Of a stretch of DNA of 64,000 nt, positions 15,857 to 23,721 are shown in pieces. Location of the stretch: positions 682,001 through 746,000 of the forward strand of contig JACRHT010000012.1 of the NCBI GenBank assembly GCA_016217545.1, given 5' to 3'. The stretch comes from Opitutia bacterium (GTDB lineage Bacteria; Verrucomicrobiota; Verrucomicrobiia; Opitutales; Opitutaceae). The notes beneath the pieces were generated by a model. It saw nothing but the letters and a program-made list of their open reading frames with translations, did not search any database and had not been told where the DNA came from. A program made the translations under genes and the position numbers. Numbering within the stretch: position 1 is the stretch's first letter; every line of letters begins with the position of its first letter.

Positions 15857-16474
15857 TTACTTTTTCGGGGCGTGGCGTTTTTCGAGGATACTGAGGGCGT
15901 CTTGGAGCGAGAGGCCTTTGGTGCGCAGGAGGACGATCAGGTGGAAGAGCAAGTCGGCCGCTTCGTTGGCGAGTTCAACGTTGTCGCCGGCGGTCGCGGC
16001 GAGTGCAGTCTCGACGCCCTCTTCGCCGACTTTCTGCGCGACGCGCTTCACGCCTTCGCGGACGAGTTTGGCGGTGTAGCTCTTCTCGTCGCCGGAGCAG
16101 ATGCGCTGATTCACCGTGCGTTCGAGCTGCGCGAGGAAACCGGTGCCGGTGGCGCCGCCGCCTTCGCCGAAGCACGAGCAGGTGCCGCGGTGGCAGGTCG
16201 GACCGTTGGGGCGCGCGCGGACGAGCAGCGTGTCGTTGTCGCAATCGCCCTCGACGCTCACGAAGTCGAGGAAATGGCCGGACGATTCTCCCTTGGTCCA
16301 GAGGCGGTTCTTCGAACGCGAGAAAAACGTCACTCGCTTGGTCGCGAGCGTCTGCTCGAGCGCGGCGGCGTTCATGTAGCCGAGCATGAGGACTTGCTGC
16401 GTGTCGGCGTCCTGAATGATGGCGGGCAGCAGGCCGTCGCCTTTTTGCCAGTCGAGGGCAGGGAGAGTGTTCAT
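15857..16474 (-). CDS. hisIE: HisIE: phosphoribosyl-AMP cyclohydrolase / phosphoribosyl-ATP pyrophosphatase
   Basis: A 205-residue bifunctional enzyme catalysing the second and third steps of histidine synthesis. The HisI half (about 1-115) has [35 protein letters not shown] and the zinc-binding CHRGTCSCF. The HisE half (about 125-205) has [19 protein letters not shown] and [17 protein letters not shown]. The start [17 protein letters not shown] at 16474 has GGAGG nearby; the in-frame extension upstream is encoded by a dispersed repeat and was rejected. It is the last gene of the his operon, 112 bases after hisF, with the repeat in between. Confidence 0.93.
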
Positions 16475-16487
16475 TGGAGGTGGGAGA

Positions 16488-16576
16488 AACCACGAATGGA
16501 CACGAATGAACACGAATGAGGGAAGACTGGTTCGCGGGGCGGGATCATTCGTGTGAATTCGTGTCTATTCGTGGTT
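16488..16576. repeat. Dispersed inverted repeat, CACGAAT family (copy 1)
   Basis: The left arm is tandem CCACGAATG-GACACGAATG-AACACGAATG words. The right arm carries their complement (ATTCGTGT...ATTCGTGTC...ATTCGTGG). The arms are separated by about 25 unrelated bases. A second copy lies at 62347-62435. It is placed between hisF and hisIE without breaking either gene. Confidence 0.92.
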
Positions 16577-16586
16577 GAAAATTTCT

Positions 16587-17354
16587 TCAGGTGCGGATGC
16601 AGACGCCTTCGCGGGCGAGGTAGGATTTGAGAGTGGGAATCGGGATGGTGCCTTTGTGGAAGACCGACGCGGCGAGCGCGCCGTCGACCGAGGCTTGTTG
16701 GAAAACGTCGCGGAAGTGCTCGGGCGCGCCGGCGCCGCCGGAGGCGACGAGCGGGATTGTGAGCACGGAGCGGACGAGTTTGAGCTGCGTGAGATCGTAA
16801 CCGGCGCGCACGCCGTCTTGGTTCATGCAGTTGAGGACGACTTCGCCGGCGCCGCGCTTTTGCGCTTCGGCGGCCCAGTCGATCGTGCGCCAACGCGTGG
16901 ACTGCGTCTTGTCGGGATTGCCGGTGTAGGCCTTCACGAAGTAGTCGCCGTTTTCCTGGCGCGAATCGATGCCGACGACGACGGCTTGCGAGCCGAATTC
17001 GTCGGCCAGCGCGGTGATCAGATCCGGGTTTTCGAGGGCGGGAGAGTTGAGCGAGACCTTGTCGGCGCCGCTGTGGAGGATCACGCGCGCGCCATCGAGC
17101 GAGCGGATGCCGCCGGCGACGCAGAACGGAATGTCGATCACACGGGCCACGCGCTCGACCCATGCGGCGGAGACGGTGCGACCGTCGCTGCTCGCGGTGA
17201 TGTCGTAGAAAACCAACTCGTCGGCGCCGGCATCGCGGTAGCGTTGGGCGAGCTCGATGATGTCACCCATGTCCTCGTGGTTGCGGAACTGGACGCCCTT
17301 CACGACGCGGCCGTCGCGGACGTCGAGGCAGGGAATGATTCTACGGGCGAGCAT
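16587..17354 (-). CDS. hisF: HisF: imidazole glycerol phosphate synthase cyclase subunit
   Basis: A 255-residue (beta/alpha)8 barrel. Motifs are [23 protein letters not shown] with the catalytic Asp in PCLDV, the C-terminal phosphate site [12 protein letters not shown], and DGVRAGYDL with the second catalytic Asp. It partners HisH (18325-18918), which supplies ammonia from glutamine, to make IGP and AICAR. The start is ATG 17354; an upstream in-frame ATG seven codons earlier gives a poor match. The spacer to hisA contains AAGTAACAAGAGCCAAGTGCC-type low-complexity sequence. Confidence 0.94.
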
Positions 17355-17459
17355 CTGAGAGGTTCCAAGTAACAAGAGCCAAGTGCCAAGAAATGCGAGA
17401 GAGCGAGGCGAGAGCCAAGGCAGCCGGTTTTGGCGTTTGGGCGTTTGTGATTTGAGATT

Positions 17460-18191
17460 TCATCGGCATGCGAGCGCCTCCTTCAGCGTGAACTTGTGCT
17501 CGTAGAGCGCGCGGCCGACAATTGCTCCCGGCGTGCCTTCGGCTTTGAGACGACGCAGATCGTCGAGCGACGAGACGCCGCCGGACGCCTGCACCTGCAA
17601 CGCGGGAAAATCACGCCGGAGCTGCGCGTAGAGTTCGAAGTTCGGGCCGGTGAGTTTACCATCGCGACTGATGTCCGTGCAAAGCATGTGACGCAGGCCG
17701 CGCGCGGTGAAATTCGTCAGCACGTCGGCGAGTGCGAGGCCGCTGTCGGCCCGCCAGCCGGCGATGGCGACTTGCGGCACGCCCGCGGCGTTGAGGCGGA
17801 CGTCGAGCGCGAGGACGATTTTTTCCGGACCGAATTTCTCCAGCCAACCGGCGACGAGCTCCGGTTCCTTCACGGCGAGGCTGCCGACGATGACGCGCGT
17901 CACGCCCGCAGCGAGCAGTGCGGTGACTTGCGCTTCCTCGCGGATGCCGCCGCCGGATTGCACGAGCAAGCCGCTCGCGGCGACGACGCGTTCGATGAGC
18001 GCGGTCTGGCGCTGCGCGGGATCCTTCGCGCCATCGAGGTCGACGAGGTGCAGCCAGGTGGAACCGGCGGCTTTGAACTCGCGCGCTACGACGGTCGGGT
18101 CGTCGTGGTAGGCTTTCTCGGCTTCGAAGCTGCCCTCGGTGAGGCGCACGACGCGACCGCGGCGGAGGTCGATGGCGGGATAGATGATCAT
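17460..18191 (-). CDS. hisA: HisA: ProFAR isomerase
   Basis: A 243-residue (beta/alpha)8 barrel starting MIIYPAIDLRRGRVVRLTEG, with the catalytic Asp in PAIDL and the second catalytic Asp in CTDISRDGKLTGPN. QVQASGGVSSLDDL and GAIVGRALYEHKFTL form the C-terminal phosphate site. It isomerises ProFAR to PRFAR. A TTG three codons upstream could also initiate, but the ATG matches the family start. It lies 134 bases downstream of hisH; that spacer holds a 14-base direct repeat. Confidence 0.94.
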   Translation of the reverse strand: MIIYPAIDLRRGRVVRLTEGSFEAEKAYHDDPTVVAREFKAAGSTWLHLVDLDGAKDPAQRQTALIERVVAASGLLVQSGGGIREEAQVTALLAAGVTRVIVGSLAVKEPELVAGWLEKFGPEKIVLALDVRLNAAGVPQVAIAGWRADSGLALADVLTNFTARGLRHMLCTDISRDGKLTGPNFELYAQLRRDFPALQVQASGGVSSLDDLRRLKAEGTPGAIVGRALYEHKFTLKEALACR

Positions 18192-18217
18192 GCGGGACAA
18201 GAAACTCGTTTGTTATC

Positions 18218-18324: not shown

Positions 18325-18918
18325 TCACGCGGGGAGGGTGAGGAAGTTTTTCAGGAGCTGGGCGCCGGCGGGGCCGGAGCGCTCGGGGTGGAATTGCACG
18401 CCGTAGAAGTTGCCGCGCTGCACGACGGCGGCGAACGGCGTGCCGTGCGTCGCGCTGGCGAGAGTGTGGGCGTTCACCGGGCCGGCGTAGCTGTGGACGA
18501 AATAGAAACGCGCGTCGCGGGCGATGCCGTGGAGGAGCGGCGTGTCGCGGAGGACTTCGAGCGTGTTCCAACCCATGTGCGGCACGGTGATGCCGTGCGT
18601 CTCGGGAATGCGCGTCACGCGGCCGGGGATCAGGCCGAGCGAAGTGGTGTCGCCTTCGTCGGAGGATTCGAAGAGGAGCTGCTCGCCGAGGCAGAAGCCG
18701 ATGACGGGCTGCGTGAGACCGCGGATGGTCTCGACGAGATTGCGCGCGCGGAGCTTGCGCATGCCTTCCTGCGCGGAGCCCACGCCCGGCAGGATGACGC
18801 GCTCGGCCGAGCGGATGATGGCGGGATCGGCGGTGAGCTCGCTCGCGATGCCGAGCCGCTCAAGCGCGAAGCGCACCGAGGCGATGTTGGCGCCGCCGCT
18901 GTCGACGATGGCGAGCAT
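18325..18918 (-). CDS. hisH: HisH: IGP synthase glutamine amidotransferase subunit
   Basis: A 197-residue class I glutamine amidotransferase. It starts MLAIVDSGGANIASVRFALERLG; the catalytic Cys is in VIGFCLGEQLLFESS, and the His-Glu pair is in GVQFHPERSGPAG. It hydrolyses glutamine and channels ammonia to HisF. Its ATG overlaps the hisB stop by one base (TGATG), indicating translational coupling. The nucleophile context FCLGEQ differs slightly from the common CLGMQ motif. Confidence 0.93.
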   Translation of the reverse strand: MLAIVDSGGANIASVRFALERLGIASELTADPAIIRSAERVILPGVGSAQEGMRKLRARNLVETIRGLTQPVIGFCLGEQLLFESSDEGDTTSLGLIPGRVTRIPETHGITVPHMGWNTLEVLRDTPLLHGIARDARFYFVHSYAGPVNAHTLASATHGTPFAAVVQRGNFYGVQFHPERSGPAGAQLLKNFLTLPA

Positions 18919-19982
18919 CACAGCACTCCCTTCGAACTCGGGATGTCGCCGCCGACGGTGCGGGCGACGGCGGGACGCAGCGCGCGGCCGAAGCCTTTGA
19001 ACAGCGCTTCGATCATGTGGTGCGTGTTGTCGCCGGTGACCTTCATGTGCAGCGTCGCGCCGAGCGTGTCGCTGACGGATTTGAAAAAGTGCGAGACCAT
19101 CTCGGTGGGCAGCTCGCCGACGTTGCCGCGCGGGAAATCCGCCTCGAAGACCAGCCACGCGCGGCCGCTGAGATCGAGCGCGACGTCAGCGCGCGACTCG
19201 TCCATCGGCATGACGAAGCCGTAGCGGCCGATGCCGCGTTTGTCGCCGAGGGCCTGCTTGAGCGCGGTGCCGAGGGCGAGGCCGACGTCTTCGATGGTGT
19301 GGTGCTCGTCGATGTGCAGGTCGCCGTCGCAGGTGATGACGAGGCTGATGCCGGCGTTGCGGGCGATCTGCTCGAGCATGTGGTCGAAGAAGCCGAGGCC
19401 GGTGCGAAATGAGACGGGCGCGGTGGCGTCGAGGTCGACGGTGACGGTGATCTTGGTCTCCTTGGTCTCGCGTTTGATCGTGGCGCGACGCGGCGCGTCG
19501 ACGAGCTGGCGGGCGATTTCGGTCCAGTTGAGTTTGGTGCGGTCGTAGCGGAGGCCGCGAATGCCGAGCGCGGCGGCAAGCTGGAGATCGGTTTCGCGAT
19601 CGCCGATCACGGCGGAAGCAGCGCGGTCCCACGCGGTGTCGCGAAGGTAGTCCATCACGAGGCCGGGCTTGGGTTTTCGGCAATCGCAACGATCGGCGGC
19701 GGTGTGCGGGCAGACGCGGACGGCTTCGAAGGCGATGCCTTGCGAGGCGAGGATACTGATCAACAGGTCCTGCAGCGGGCGGAATTCGCTCTCGCGAAAA
19801 CTCGGCGTGCCGAGGCCGTCCTGATTCGTCACCATCACGAAGGTGAAGCCGGCGTCGCGTAGGCGGCGGAGTGCGGGGACGACCTCGGGTTCGAGCGCGA
19901 ACTTGTCGAGGCGGTCGATCTGCTGGTCGACGGGTTCGGCGATGAGCGTGCCGTCGCGGTCGAGGAAGAGGAGTTTTTTCAT
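18918..19982 (-). CDS. hisB: HisB: histidinol-phosphatase / imidazoleglycerol-phosphate dehydratase
   Basis: A 354-residue bifunctional protein. The N-terminal HAD phosphatase (about 1-160) has LFLDRDGTLIAEP, FVMVTNQDGLG and a Zn-loop with CPHTAADRCDCRKPKPG. The C-terminal IGP dehydratase (about 165-354) has FFDHMLEQIARN, DGDLHIDEHHTIEDVG and DNTHHMIEALFKGFGRAL. This is the enterobacterial-type fusion covering two histidine steps. The start MKKLLFLDRDGT is unambiguous. A REP-like element separates it from hisC. Confidence 0.94.
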   Translation of the reverse strand: MKKLLFLDRDGTLIAEPVDQQIDRLDKFALEPEVVPALRRLRDAGFTFVMVTNQDGLGTPSFRESEFRPLQDLLISILASQGIAFEAVRVCPHTAADRCDCRKPKPGLVMDYLRDTAWDRAASAVIGDRETDLQLAAALGIRGLRYDRTKLNWTEIARQLVDAPRRATIKRETKETKITVTVDLDATAPVSFRTGLGFFDHMLEQIARNAGISLVITCDGDLHIDEHHTIEDVGLALGTALKQALGDKRGIGRYGFVMPMDESRADVALDLSGRAWLVFEADFPRGNVGELPTEMVSHFFKSVSDTLGATLHMKVTGDNTHHMIEALFKGFGRALRPAVARTVGGDIPSSKGVL

Positions 19983-20100: not shown

Positions 20101-21195
20101 TTAGACACGGGCGAGGGTCTCCAGGGCGAAGTCGTTTTCGGCGCGCGTGCCGATGGTGATGCGGACGGTGTTGGGCACGTCCTTGCTGCGGTCGCGGATG
20201 ACGAGGCCGGCGGCGCGGGCGATGTTCATGATGCGCGAGGCGTCGGTGACCTCGACCAGCAGGAAGTTGGCGTCGCTCGGCCAGATCTTGCGGACGTGCG
20301 GGAGTTTCACGAGCGCGACGGTGAGGCGGCGGCGTTCGCCGACGAGATCGAGGGCGGACTGGCGCGCGGCGGAAATGCCGGCGGGCGTGAGCGCATCGAG
20401 CGCGGCGCGGACGACCGGCGCGGGAATCGGGTAGGGCGCGATGATTTTCTGCAGGACGCCGACGAGCGCCGGCGAGGCGAGCGTCACGCCGACGCGTGCG
20501 CCGGCGAGGCCGTAGGCTTTCGAGAGCGTGCGGAGGACAACGAGGTTGGGATTGGCGTCGAGTTCCTGCACGAGGCTCGGCTCGGTGGAGAACTCCGCGT
20601 AAGCCTCGTCGACCACGACGACGGCGCGCGAGGCGAGCGTCGTGACGATCTTGAGCACTGCGTCGCGATCAAGGAGCTGGCCCGTCGGGTTGTTGGGTGA
20701 GCAGAGGAAAACGAGTTTGGTTTCCGGTGTCCCGCCTCCGCCATTCGGCTCCGGCGCGGCAAGCACGGCGCGGAGAACGGCGTCGGCATCGAGCGCGAAG
20801 TCCTTTTCGCGGACGAGCGGGACGGTGAGGACGCGCGCGCCCTGGATCGCGGCGGCGACGGAATACATGCCGTAGGTCGGCGGCGTGAACAGGATCGAGT
20901 CCTGGCCGGCGCGGCAGAACGCGCGCAGGAGAAGATCGATGCCTTCGTCGGAACCGCGCGTGACTAGTATGCGGTCGGGTTTGACGCCGTAGAGCGAGGC
21001 GAGGCGGGCGACGACTTCGGCCGGTTGCGGCTCGGGGTAACGGTTCAGGCGCGGCGCGCCGGCGTGCGGCGTCGAGGGATTTTCGTTGGCGTCGAGCCAG
21101 ACCTTGCCGCCGGAGGCTTCCTTGCGGGCCGAGGAATACGGGGTGAGCGCGAGGATATCGGGGCGGACGAGCGCGAGAACGGGGTCGGAGTTCAT
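20101..21195 (-). CDS. hisC: HisC: histidinol-phosphate aminotransferase
   Basis: A 364-residue fold-type I PLP enzyme. Motifs are DANENPSTPHAG, RYPEPQPAEV, SDEGIDLLLRAF, CSPNNPTGQLL, VVVDEAYAEF and the Schiff-base Lys in LRTLSKAYGLAGARVG. It transaminates imidazole acetol phosphate. The start MNSDPVLALVRPDILAL overlaps the hisD stop by 4 bases (ATGA). It is distinct from the aminotransferase half of the 7059-8810 fusion. Confidence 0.94.
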   Translation of the reverse strand: MNSDPVLALVRPDILALTPYSSARKEASGGKVWLDANENPSTPHAGAPRLNRYPEPQPAEVVARLASLYGVKPDRILVTRGSDEGIDLLLRAFCRAGQDSILFTPPTYGMYSVAAAIQGARVLTVPLVREKDFALDADAVLRAVLAAPEPNGGGGTPETKLVFLCSPNNPTGQLLDRDAVLKIVTTLASRAVVVVDEAYAEFSTEPSLVQELDANPNLVVLRTLSKAYGLAGARVGVTLASPALVGVLQKIIAPYPIPAPVVRAALDALTPAGISAARQSALDLVGERRRLTVALVKLPHVRKIWPSDANFLLVEVTDASRIMNIARAAGLVIRDRSKDVPNTVRITIGTRAENDFALETLARV

Positions 21196-22493
21196 CGGGA
21201 GAGTTTTTGGAGGCGGACGGTGACCGCGCGGCGGTGGGCGACGAGGCTTTCGGCCTCGGCGAGGCGCGCGACGGTGCCGCTGAGGCGGGCGAAGCCGAGC
21301 GGTGTGGCTTCCTGCACGGTCATCGTGCGCGAGAAATCTGCCAGGCCGAGGCCGCTGAAGGAACGCGCCCAGCCGTAGGTCGGCAGGACATGGTTGGTGC
21401 CGCTGGCGTAGTCGCCGAGCGACTCGGGTGTCCACGGGCCGACAAAGACCGAGCCAGCGGCGGTGATTTGCGGGAGGAGGCGGCGCGGGTTTGCGAGTTG
21501 GAGGATGAGATGCTCGGGCGCGTAGGCGTTGGCGATCTCCACGGCTTCGGCGGGCGAGGCGGCGAGGATGACGCGGCTCTTTTTCAGCGCGACTTCGGCG
21601 ATTTCGCGTCGCGGAAGGAGCTTGAGCTGAGTTTGGACTTCGAGAGCGATGCGGGAGGCAATCGCCTCGGAGAAGGTGACCAATACGACCTGCGAGTCGG
21701 GGCCGTGTTCGGCTTGCGAGAGGAGATCGGCGGCGACGAACGAGGCGTCGGCGGTGCGGTCGGCGATGACCATAACCTCGGACGGGCCGGCGGGCATGTC
21801 GATGGCGGCGCCGGCGGCGGAGCGCGAGACTTGGAGCTTGGCCTCGGTGACAAAGGCGTTGCCGGGGCCGAAGAGCTTGTCGCACTTCGGGATCGTCTTC
21901 GTGCCGGCGGCCATGGCGGCGATCGCTTGCGCGCCGCCGACCTTGAAGACGTCGGTGATGCCGCAGAGTTGGGCGGCGAAAAGGATCCAGGGATTCACGC
22001 GGCCGTCGCGGCCCGGGGGCGTGCAGAGGACGCGCACGGGACAGCCGGCGAGTTGCGCGGGGACGCCGAGCATGAGTGCGGTGGAGAACAGCGGCGCGCT
22101 GCCGCCGGGGACGTAGAGGCCGACGCGCTCGATCGGGCGCGTGACTTTTTCGCAGACGATGCCGCGCATCGTCTCGACGCGGATCGGTTTCGCAACTTGC
22201 GCGGCGTGGAAGCGGCGGATGTTGCGGTAGGCGGTGCGAAGGGCGGCCTTGTCGGCGGGCGTGAGGGCTTTTTCGGCGGCGGCGAACTCCGCCGGGCTGA
22301 CGCGGAGCGAGGTGAGTTTCGCGCCGTCGAACTTCGCGGTCAGGCGCTTCAGCGCGGTGTCGCCGTCGCGGGCGACCTCGGCGATGATACGCGAGACGGC
22401 GTCGGCGATGTCGGTGCGGCGCGTCTGCGCCGGCCGCTCGAGGGCGGCGGCGCGGCGGGCGGGGGAGAATTTTTTCCAGACGAGCGTTTGCAT
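21192..22493 (-). CDS. hisD: HisD: histidinol dehydrogenase
   Basis: A 433-residue zinc-dependent NAD+ oxidoreductase catalysing the last two oxidations. Motifs are VGLYVPGGSAPLFSTALML, the GGAQAIAAMAAGT loop, GPGNAFVTEAK, DMPAGPSEVMVIAD, LLSQAEHGPDSQ, and the family GDYASGTNHVLPT followed by FSGLGLADFSRTMTVQE. Full length. It lies 31 bases downstream of hisG and overlaps hisC by 4 bases. Confidence 0.95.
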   Translation of the reverse strand: MQTLVWKKFSPARRAAALERPAQTRRTDIADAVSRIIAEVARDGDTALKRLTAKFDGAKLTSLRVSPAEFAAAEKALTPADKAALRTAYRNIRRFHAAQVAKPIRVETMRGIVCEKVTRPIERVGLYVPGGSAPLFSTALMLGVPAQLAGCPVRVLCTPPGRDGRVNPWILFAAQLCGITDVFKVGGAQAIAAMAAGTKTIPKCDKLFGPGNAFVTEAKLQVSRSAAGAAIDMPAGPSEVMVIADRTADASFVAADLLSQAEHGPDSQVVLVTFSEAIASRIALEVQTQLKLLPRREIAEVALKKSRVILAASPAEAVEIANAYAPEHLILQLANPRRLLPQITAAGSVFVGPWTPESLGDYASGTNHVLPTYGWARSFSGLGLADFSRTMTVQEATPLGFARLSGTVARLAEAESLVAHRRAVTVRLQKLSR

Positions 22494-22524: not shown

Positions 22525-23442
22525 TCACATCATCATCTTTTCGATCGGGAGCACAAGGATGGCGCTGGCGCCGGCGCGCTTGAGGGACTCCATGGTTTCC
22601 CAGAAGACGGCTTCCTGGCAGACGGCGTGGAGCGCGACTTTGGTGTCGTCGCCGGCGAGCGGGAGGATGGTCGGGTTCTCGGAGCCGGGGAGGAGTTTCT
22701 TGATCTCGGCGAGCGCGCTCTTCGGGGCGTGGAGCATGATGTATTTCGCTTCGGCGGCGAGCTGCACGCCGTCGATGCGGCGAAGGAGGATGTCGAGGGC
22801 GTGGCGCTTGGCGGCGTCGAGCGGGCGGTCGCAGCGGATGAGCGTGGCCTTGGATTTGAAGATCGTCTCGACGGCGCGGAGGCGGTTGGCCTCGAGGGTG
22901 GAGCCGGTGGCGACGAGGTCGCAGATGGCGTCGGCGAGACCGAGGCGCGGGGCGATTTCGACGGAGCCGGTGAGGAGGACGACGTCGGCTTTCACGTTTT
23001 GCGCGGCGAGCCAGCGTTTGGTGAGACGCGGGTAGGAAGTCGCGATGCGGAGGCCGGCGAGGTCGGCGGAAGAGGCGTAGCCGCGCTCTTCGGGGAGGGC
23101 GACGGCGAGGCGGCAGCCGCCGAAGTCGAGGCGGCGGTCGACGACGTAGGGGTTGTGCGTGCCGCCGGAGGTGCGTTCGAGGGCGGTTTCCTCTAGGACG
23201 TTCTCGCCGACGATGCCGAGGTCGCACACGCCGTCCATGACGAGTTGCGGGATGTCGTCGTCGCGGACGAAGAGGATATCGATCGGGAAGTTTTCGGCGT
23301 GGAGGAGCAGCTTTTCCTTGGGCGCCTTGACCTTGATGCCGCAGCGGTTGAGCAGGTCGAGCGAGTCGGTGGAAAGGCGTCCGCTCTTCTGGATGGCGAG
23401 GCGGAGGCGGTCTTTGGCGGGAGGAGTGACGATGGGAGACAT
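22525..23442 (-). CDS. hisG: HisG: ATP phosphoribosyltransferase (long form)
   Basis: A 305-residue long-form enzyme, with a C-terminal regulatory domain (ACT-like) that permits feedback inhibition by histidine and removes the need for HisZ. Motifs are [48 protein letters not shown] and [13 protein letters not shown] with the PRPP loop. The start [13 protein letters not shown] at 23442 is preceded by a TGAGAG-type spacer; the 25 extra upstream codons are repeat-derived. It is the first structural gene behind the attenuator. Confidence 0.94.
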
Positions 23443-23446
23443 GGGA

Positions 23447-23483
23447 GGCTGAAGTTGAGAGTCTGGAGCTGAGAGTTGAGAGG
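23447..23483 (-). repeat. Degenerate TGAGAG-type spacer repeat
   Basis: GCTGAAGTTGAGAGTCTGG then GCTGAGAGTTGAGAGG: short imperfect copies of the heptamer seen at 3701-3762, located between the attenuator terminator and the hisG start. Confidence 0.7.
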
Positions 23484-23494
23484 CCGGAAAAGCA

Positions 23495-23526
23495 GAAACC
23501 CCGGTGGGGTGTGCCACCGGGGTTTC
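23495..23526 (-). terminator. his operon attenuator terminator
   Basis: A perfect 13-base-pair stem (GAAACCCCGGTGG / CCACCGGGGTTTC) with a 6-base loop, followed on the minus strand by TGCTTTTCC. It lies between the His leader peptide and hisG, so termination here would switch off the operon. Confidence 0.85.
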
Positions 23527-23581
23527 AGAAATTGGGTTTCATCACCACGGGAAGGCACGCTGCCTTCCCGGGCAGGGAAGG

Positions 23582-23617
23582 CTAGGAGGAGTGGTGATGG
23601 TGGTGGTTGAGAACCAT
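23582..23617 (-). CDS. hisL: HisL: his operon leader peptide
   Basis: A short frame of 11 codons plus stop, ATG at 23617 and TAG at 23584-23582, reading MVLNHHHHHSS. Five consecutive His codons (CAC CAC CAT CAC CAC) lie about 140 bases upstream of hisG and immediately before alternative hairpins and a terminator. This arrangement is diagnostic of translational attenuation of histidine biosynthesis. No strong Shine-Dalgarno is visible, so translation initiation may rely on an unstructured leader. Too short for routine gene finders. Confidence 0.85.
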   Translation of the reverse strand: MVLNHHHHHSS

Positions 23618-23721
23618 GACGAAGCGTTCGCCAAAAAGCCGGACTGGGCCGAAAGCGGCAAGCGATTTCTTTTGCCCGCCACGGCATAAGGCACGACAAA
23701 ACCCGCCGCTCCCCCTCGCGC

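Follow-up and report, generated by a model that had tools for sequence, protein, structure and literature searches.

A probable histidine attenuator of E. coli type ahead of a proteobacterial-type his operon in Opitutaceae

Introduction

In the his attenuator of E. coli and Salmonella, transcription is governed by two mutually exclusive sets of helices, B:C with D:E and C:D with E:F, and the untranslated Salmonella leader is described as being held by pairing of A with B, as outlined in PMC4046918. According to the accounts given in PMC2965389 and PMC9413887, leader peptides are used by Proteobacteria, Actinobacteria and some Firmicutes. The Firmicutes His leaders treated in PMC9413887 (Bacillus cereus group, Eubacteriales and Erysipelotrichales) carry three to five consecutive His codons, followed by alternative hairpins and a terminator, and as far as that account extends none of them matches the His_leader model RF00514. 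A different solution is the TrpR-family repressor HisR, which controls his operons in Xanthomonadales and Caulobacterales (described in PMC9413887). Words beginning with Verrucomicrob do not occur in the main text of PMC2965389 or PMC9413887, and no verrucomicrobial his attenuator was recognized by title or start of abstract among the open-access matches listed; older comparative work on attenuators may include one.

Here we describe a his leader from a member of the Opitutaceae (Verrucomicrobiota), for which the scheme of helices matches that of the E. coli and Salmonella attenuator. It is very probably a classical-type, ribosome-mediated attenuator controlling a complete proteobacterial-type his operon, the operon having most likely been acquired together with its leader.

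Results and discussion

Leader and his operon in the window

The window analyzed here, a stretch of 64,000 nucleotides from contig JACRHT010000012.1 of assembly GCA_016217545.1, carries on its minus strand a complete his operon, hisG-D-C-B-H-A-F-IE (gene order as checked in the window). The leader and the elements of the switch lie on the same strand, 5' of the hisG start at 23442. The start codons of hisC and hisH were picked by us.

23582..23617, minus strand: leader peptide frame MVLNHHHHHSS with stop codon, ATG GTT CTC AAC CAC CAC CAT CAC CAC TCC TCC TAG; its His codons belong to region A
23591..23599, minus strand: A, CATCACCAC, part of the His codons and exact complement of s4 at 23540-23548
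23575..23582, minus strand: B, GCCTTCCC, overlapping the end of the stop codon by one base; predicted partner of C under a His stall
23561..23569, minus strand: C, GGGAAGGCA, partner of B or D
23549..23557, minus strand: D, TGCCTTCCC, which pairs with C (termination) or, via GTGCC at 23558-23554, with E (antitermination)
23540..23548, minus strand: s4, GTGGTGATG, adjoining D; predicted partner of the His codons in the untranslated leader; aligns with GUGGUGcAUGA of E. coli
23495..23526, minus strand: intrinsic terminator E:F, 13 bp with a loop of 6; the partner of D is GGCAC at 23515-23511 (end of the 5' arm plus loop)
23487..23494, minus strand: T-rich terminator tail, TGCTTTTC
22525..23442, minus strand: hisG, 305 aa, long form, first controlled gene (NCBIfam TIGR00070, TIGR03455)
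21192..22493, minus strand: hisD (TIGR00069)
20101..21195, minus strand: hisC (TIGR01141)
18918..19982, minus strand: hisB, bifunctional (phosphatase plus dehydratase) as in E. coli (NF003937, 528.9 bits against a cut-off of 443)
18325..18921, minus strand: hisH (TIGR01855)
17460..18200, minus strand: hisA (TIGR00007)
16587..17375, minus strand: hisF (TIGR00735)
15857..16513, minus strand: hisIE, bifunctional (NF002747)

The initial annotation of this DNA had read a 36-base frame encoding MVLNHHHHHSS and three short segments capable of alternative pairing, and both are present, the frame at 23617-23582 of the minus strand and the segments as GCCTTCCC, GGGAAGGCA and TGCCTTCCC. It had further placed a 13-base-pair terminator with a T-run before hisG; the hairpin is found at 23526-23495, 52 bases ahead of the hisG start, but the T-rich tail that follows it (TGCTTTTCC) is interrupted rather than clean. 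The description of the genome as Verrucomicrobium-like had to be given up, as the host belongs to the Opitutaceae and the named records of its relatives are Opitutus, Lacunisphaera, Didemnitutus and Oleiharenicola. The 154-nt stretch 23640-23487 is more stable than its dinucleotide shuffles (z -5.6; 0/200 as stable).

The most conserved block upstream of the leader is an A-rich tract followed by CTTGC, located in the window at about 23658-23675 of the minus strand and beginning some 45 nt 5' of the leader ATG, which was recognized by eye in 30/31 loci (all but L043). This block is a possible candidate for a promoter or UP element.

Conservation among Opitutaceae loci

HisG searches provided 43 Opitutaceae loci of the window's HisG type, of which 31 distinct ones were left after removal of 12 whose contig, going by its length, duplicated a named one. 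Each of the 31 possesses a leader with a His run and, 3' of it, the elements described for the window, so that both leader and hairpins, on whose presence in close relatives the initial annotation had made its reading depend, are retained throughout this group. Since the locus survey itself sought His codons, a shuffle control was needed. In 31/31 loci the 320 nt upstream of hisG contain a short frame with three or more His in succession, compared with 0.39% of the 1550 dinucleotide shuffles made from these regions; at least four His in a row were found in 27/31 real regions versus none among the 1550 shuffles. No frame of at least three His was detected at the 11 examined Opitutaceae loci with the other HisG type or at 54 alphaproteobacterial and mixed loci.

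A functional small protein, for example a metal-binding polyhistidine peptide to which the RNA fold would be secondary, might account for the start MVLN or MILN that several leaders share ahead of the His run, but the residues flanking the run vary among leaders, and the leader of L043 (MGFHHHSPLS) has three His and yet keeps B, C, D and the terminator, which makes such a peptide exceedingly improbable. It is also very unlikely that the region is no more than a terminator or a structured 5' UTR, with no regulatory role and with a His frame that is not translated. Such a region would be in keeping with the fact that no sigma-70-like promoter was recognized 5' of the window leader and that inspection by eye revealed no Shine-Dalgarno sequence before the leader ATG; however, expression of hisG from an upstream start requires the intervening terminator to be overcome, 31/31 leaders retain the His run despite synonymous exchange of its codons (91 CAC, 56 CAT), and the alternative helices are retained as well.

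Pairing and compensatory changes

Pairs were counted by script on anchored segments of all 31 leaders, because the MAFFT alignment was out of register at D between two sequence groups, in one of which the alignment of D took a single G or T to be bulged. The anchor positions are invariant by construction and the sequences are related, and together with the bulge this means that the following pair counts are not independent events. Standard pairs amounted to 244/248 for B:C, to 279/279 for C:D, with two-sided changes at three positions, and to 297/310 for E:F, again with two-sided compensatory changes. For D:E, the first five pairs were standard in 146/155 cases and all seven in 178/217. The fourth D:E pair alternates between T-A and C-G; it is standard in 25/31 leaders, with 9 two-sided changes, a number of standard pairs that 0/2000 shuffles reached. 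The D:E energy of matched partners was better than that of permuted ones over all 31 leaders (3/20000) and not significantly so within the two sequence groups (2920/20000), hence this test mostly reflects one coordinated difference between the groups and carries little weight.

Folding with ribosome masks

The attenuator is expected to work as follows. When His-tRNA is scarce, a ribosome would stall on the five His codons, B:C would form, D would be available to E (the 5' arm of the terminator plus loop), and polymerase would read into hisG. With abundant His-tRNA, the ribosome would reach the stop codon and cover B, C:D would form, followed by the E:F terminator, and transcription would stop. 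In a leader that is not translated, the His codons would pair with s4 in place of the classical A:B, and the terminator would form. A promoter, its transcript, stalling of the ribosome, such a direction of the response and a role for A:s4 are inferred.

Each of the 31 leaders was folded free, with a ribosome stalled on the His codons and with one positioned on the stop codon; every state was computed both for the complete leader and for one lacking the 3' terminator arm. The D:E probability was measured on GCC of D. For the window sequence, the masked folds that the initial annotation had called for behaved as expected of such a switch. Before the 3' arm is present, the stalled mask yielded B:C at 0.87 and D:E at 1.00, the stop-codon mask C:D at 1.00 and D:E at 0.00, and the masked fold of the stop-codon state consisted of C:D plus the terminator E:F. 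Across all leaders, the stalled mask before the 3' arm resulted in D:E of at least 0.92 in 31/31 leaders; with the stop-codon mask D:E fell below 0.5 in 13/31, the window included, and stayed at or above 0.5 in 18/31. In the full-length folds the terminator prevails even under the stalled mask in 24/31 leaders, again including the window, and since it does so at equilibrium despite the stall, antitermination would have to be kinetic. The E. coli leader, treated with the same masks and compared by minimum-energy folds only, displays the same two weaknesses, so these may be limits of equilibrium folding and not of the Opitutaceae leader. Thus, the masked folds predict a mutually exclusive choice between B:C/D:E and C:D/E:F, set by the position of the ribosome, in the window and less distinctly in many of its relatives. 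Along with the 31/31 relatives, the masked folds of the window support the classical his attenuation that had been suggested for this locus.

Comparison with known his leaders

Scored with RF00514, whose gathering score is 49 bits, the window leader reached 45.0 bits (E 2.5e-6) over the full model length, 4 bits under the cut-off, and no match at or over the cut-off was obtained in the 20 Opitutaceae loci scanned or in 200 genomes of the family. The C:D hairpin of the model and the terminator E:F following it are found in the Opitutaceae leaders (279/279 and 297/310 pairs as counted above); its first stem, A:B, is not, with two of its three pairs nonstandard in the window alignment. RF00514 gives background matches near its cut-off on sequences of hairpin plus terminator: L112, L114, L115 and L117-L121, each the best place of one of eight other Verrucomicrobiota genomes (a second place of G391 was left out), score 35-47 bits and hold no His run within the match. 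The RF00514 score as sole proof was dropped on account of these eight genomes. Of the covariance-model matches in 23440-23700, 17 with E values of up to 10, none was to a T-box.

The comparison was also made in reverse, with a covariance model built from the 31 Opitutaceae leaders only. Among 48 sources it found the E. coli his leader with 53.2 bits (E 9e-13) in a full-length match that includes the D-s4 block CUUCC.GUGGUG(c)AUGA, the next being L124 with 29.7 bits and a background locus with 21.7, while L126 was not found. Without its peptide part the model retained E. coli at 39.8 bits (E 2.6e-8), and two background loci chosen by RF00514 scored 30.2 and 26.3; L124 (19.0 bits) and L126 (13.9 bits) rose above neither of them. 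Both L124 and L126 come from gammaproteobacterial genomes with related HisG; immediately 5' of hisG each has a His leader that RF00514 matches at a score below its cut-off.

With the attenuator of E. coli and Salmonella the Opitutaceae locus shares the His-run leader peptide before hisG and the bifunctional HisB, and with the E. coli leader the GUGGUG block after D that is complementary to the His codons. The start of the E. coli locus, hisL-hisG-hisD, was seen in the sequence, and the whole E. coli his gene order is that of the window operon. The two leaders differ in length, hisL of E. coli having seven His codons in 16 aa and the window leader five in 11 aa, in the A:B pairing, which is essentially absent from Opitutaceae (mean -2.2 versus -8.2 kcal/mol), in the stronger A:s4 pairing of the latter, and in the phylum of the host, Verrucomicrobiota. 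The Firmicutes His leaders differ in that they do not match RF00514, whereas the Opitutaceae leader is recognizably E. coli-like.

These comparisons bear on whether leader and attenuator could have arisen in Opitutaceae independently of E. coli. Convergence has been suggested in PMC2965389, within the account it gives of Firmicutes, for the His leaders of hisS and hisZ genes, and the absence of RF00514 matches in Firmicutes noted above points in the same direction. His codons and terminators look alike across his attenuators, and RF00514 scores 35-47 bits in the eight verrucomicrobial genomes where the match holds no His run. Against convergence, the Opitutaceae model finds the E. coli leader at full length, D-s4 block included, and does so even when deprived of the peptide.

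HisR systems are comparable in that they act on his operons in groups with some of the HisG proteins most similar to that of the window (Caulobacterales, 55-58% identity), which suggests a link; HisR is however a DNA-binding repressor and not an RNA switch, and the 54 alphaproteobacterial and mixed loci have no His leader. The gene before hisG at L122 encodes a TrpR-family protein (PF01371, 82.9 bits), and those at L123, L134 and L135 share with it the motif VTTIGRVAR, as seen by eye. Judging from these sequences, the four loci, relatives of the window operon, probably have a repressor in place of the attenuator.

Pairing of the His codons with s4

The initial annotation had pointed out that the His codons are complementary to GTGGTGATG just downstream, an extra pairing beyond the usual scheme. 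This pairing is real and conserved (31/31 leaders), but it is not peculiar to the genome, as it is predicted for the E. coli leader too. A:s4 is stronger than A:B in 31/31 leaders, at a mean of -13.4 versus -2.2 kcal/mol; its energy ranks within the best 5 of 100 s4 shuffles in 27/31, and its probability in the untranslated full-length fold is at least 0.5 in 22/31, the window included. A match of (CAY)n to (RTG)n always fits and by itself tolerates synonymous change; a function of A:s4 is argued for because s4 stays conserved although it lies outside the leader frame.

The E. coli leader has both pairings, A:B at -8.2 and A:s4 at -11.7 kcal/mol, and the Opitutaceae leader accordingly resembles a variant in which A:s4 is present but A:B is missing. 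In the gammaproteobacterial His leaders L124 and L126 A:B and A:s4 are both weak (-0.5 to -3.5 kcal/mol). We tentatively propose, as an idea with somewhat more against it than for it, that the His codons and the GUGGUG(c)AUG block after D might form a clamp which, in place of A:B, locks the leader in its terminating form when translation is absent, that the same clamp might be hidden in the E. coli switch, and that it was carried across phyla with the operon. Such a lock would result from the geometry: with D enclosed by A:s4, D:E could form only as a pseudoknot. The predicted free state before the 3' arm speaks against a strong A:s4 clamp at equilibrium, with D:E of at least 0.5 in 27/31 leaders (window, 0.38).

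Origin of the operon

Window-type HisG (73-100% identity) was detected in 19 of 200 genomes of the family, and the leader model matches with 118-142 bits in exactly the same 19, four others giving weak matches only. Two genomes of the window's own genus (86% and 74% complete) have neither this HisG nor the leader. Other HisGs of the family are 28-33% identical to that of the window, among the matches listed, and of 240 genomes of the phylum those with HisG more than 40% identical were five of the window's family and four of family f7. Bifunctional HisB over the cut-off was present in 12 of 120 genomes, namely all 10 with window-type HisG plus G027 and G032. The latter two have it without window-type HisG (G027:C29:858-1919 and G032:C84:11457-12518); in G027 the operon is apparently cut by the contig start, and G032 has an additional single-function HisB match.

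A HisG tree was calculated from 58 rows chosen by us: 18 of the 31 loci of the window type, 15 gammaproteobacterial, 8 alphaproteobacterial and 17 other Verrucomicrobiota. L126, with stops in HisG, was left out, as was L123, the same gene as L082, which is included; Bacteroidota, which can have similar his operons, were left out too. The window type formed one clade (100/99) and was grouped with E. coli and other Gammaproteobacteria at modest support (81/80), the tree program warning of long branches; long, supported branches separate it from the native Opitutaceae HisG. In a search for the donor, RF00514 had no match in five proteobacterial genomes with close HisG, and in one gammaproteobacterial sample 4/229 genomes matched, none over the cut-off.

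That the his operon was not transferred is at odds with the coincidence of proteobacterial-like HisG and leader in 19/19 genomes, with the bifunctional HisB that accompanies them (and occurs also in G027 and G032), and with the tree, which nests the window type among Proteobacteria. Taken together with the full-length E. coli match, this leaves an independent origin of the attenuator in Opitutaceae, or a his operon that did not move, as an improbable alternative. Most likely, the switch was imported with a proteobacterial-type his operon and is not a native verrucomicrobial invention, operon and attenuator having moved together between phyla into the ancestor of these Opitutaceae.

A separate His leader was noticed in family f7 of the window's class. 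L155 (G247:C22), whose HisG is 41% identical, has its own leader, MRYNAPAYMIWQVTIHHLHHHHVR followed by a stop, and a strong terminator. It is the single case among the four f7 genomes examined that have HisG more than 40% identical.

Ile-rich leaders in other Opitutaceae

In other Opitutaceae an Ile-rich short frame (e.g., MRFTSIIAAIIIIARHPGQEDAA followed by a stop) lies just before the gene of citramalate synthase (TIGR00977, 576.8 bits for L183). It was observed at L183 (G138:C362:17040-17175), L181 (G044:C15:121936-122059), L190-L192, L196, L200, L204, L209, L212 and L216. A pattern search recovered the frame at 9 of 29 loci (the 30 best loci, one being without the gene motif), and L193, L181 and L183 were added by eye; at L181 and L183 it is followed by a CCCGGG terminator. 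From its sequence the frame looks like a native isoleucine attenuator. No Ile leader was found before cimA in the window's own genome. Where a full match was listed, genomes of the three genera with the window-type his operon were also seen to have a different citramalate synthase (e.g., G000:C17:541403-542770), 50-52% identical to the query versus 61-89% in other Opitutaceae, among the matches listed.

Conclusions

The elements of the leader, their conservation, the compensatory changes in C:D, D:E and E:F, the co-occurrence with one HisG type and the similarity to the E. coli leader were observed directly. They place classical peptide-leader attenuation, as far as comparison of sequences can, in the Verrucomicrobiota with support beyond a single sequence. 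The locus offers a clean case of an operon that apparently passed from one phylum to another along with a still intact RNA switch. Moreover, with the pairing of the His codons and s4 being conserved, mutating it would be a straightforward way of asking what keeps the untranslated leader off, both here and in E. coli.
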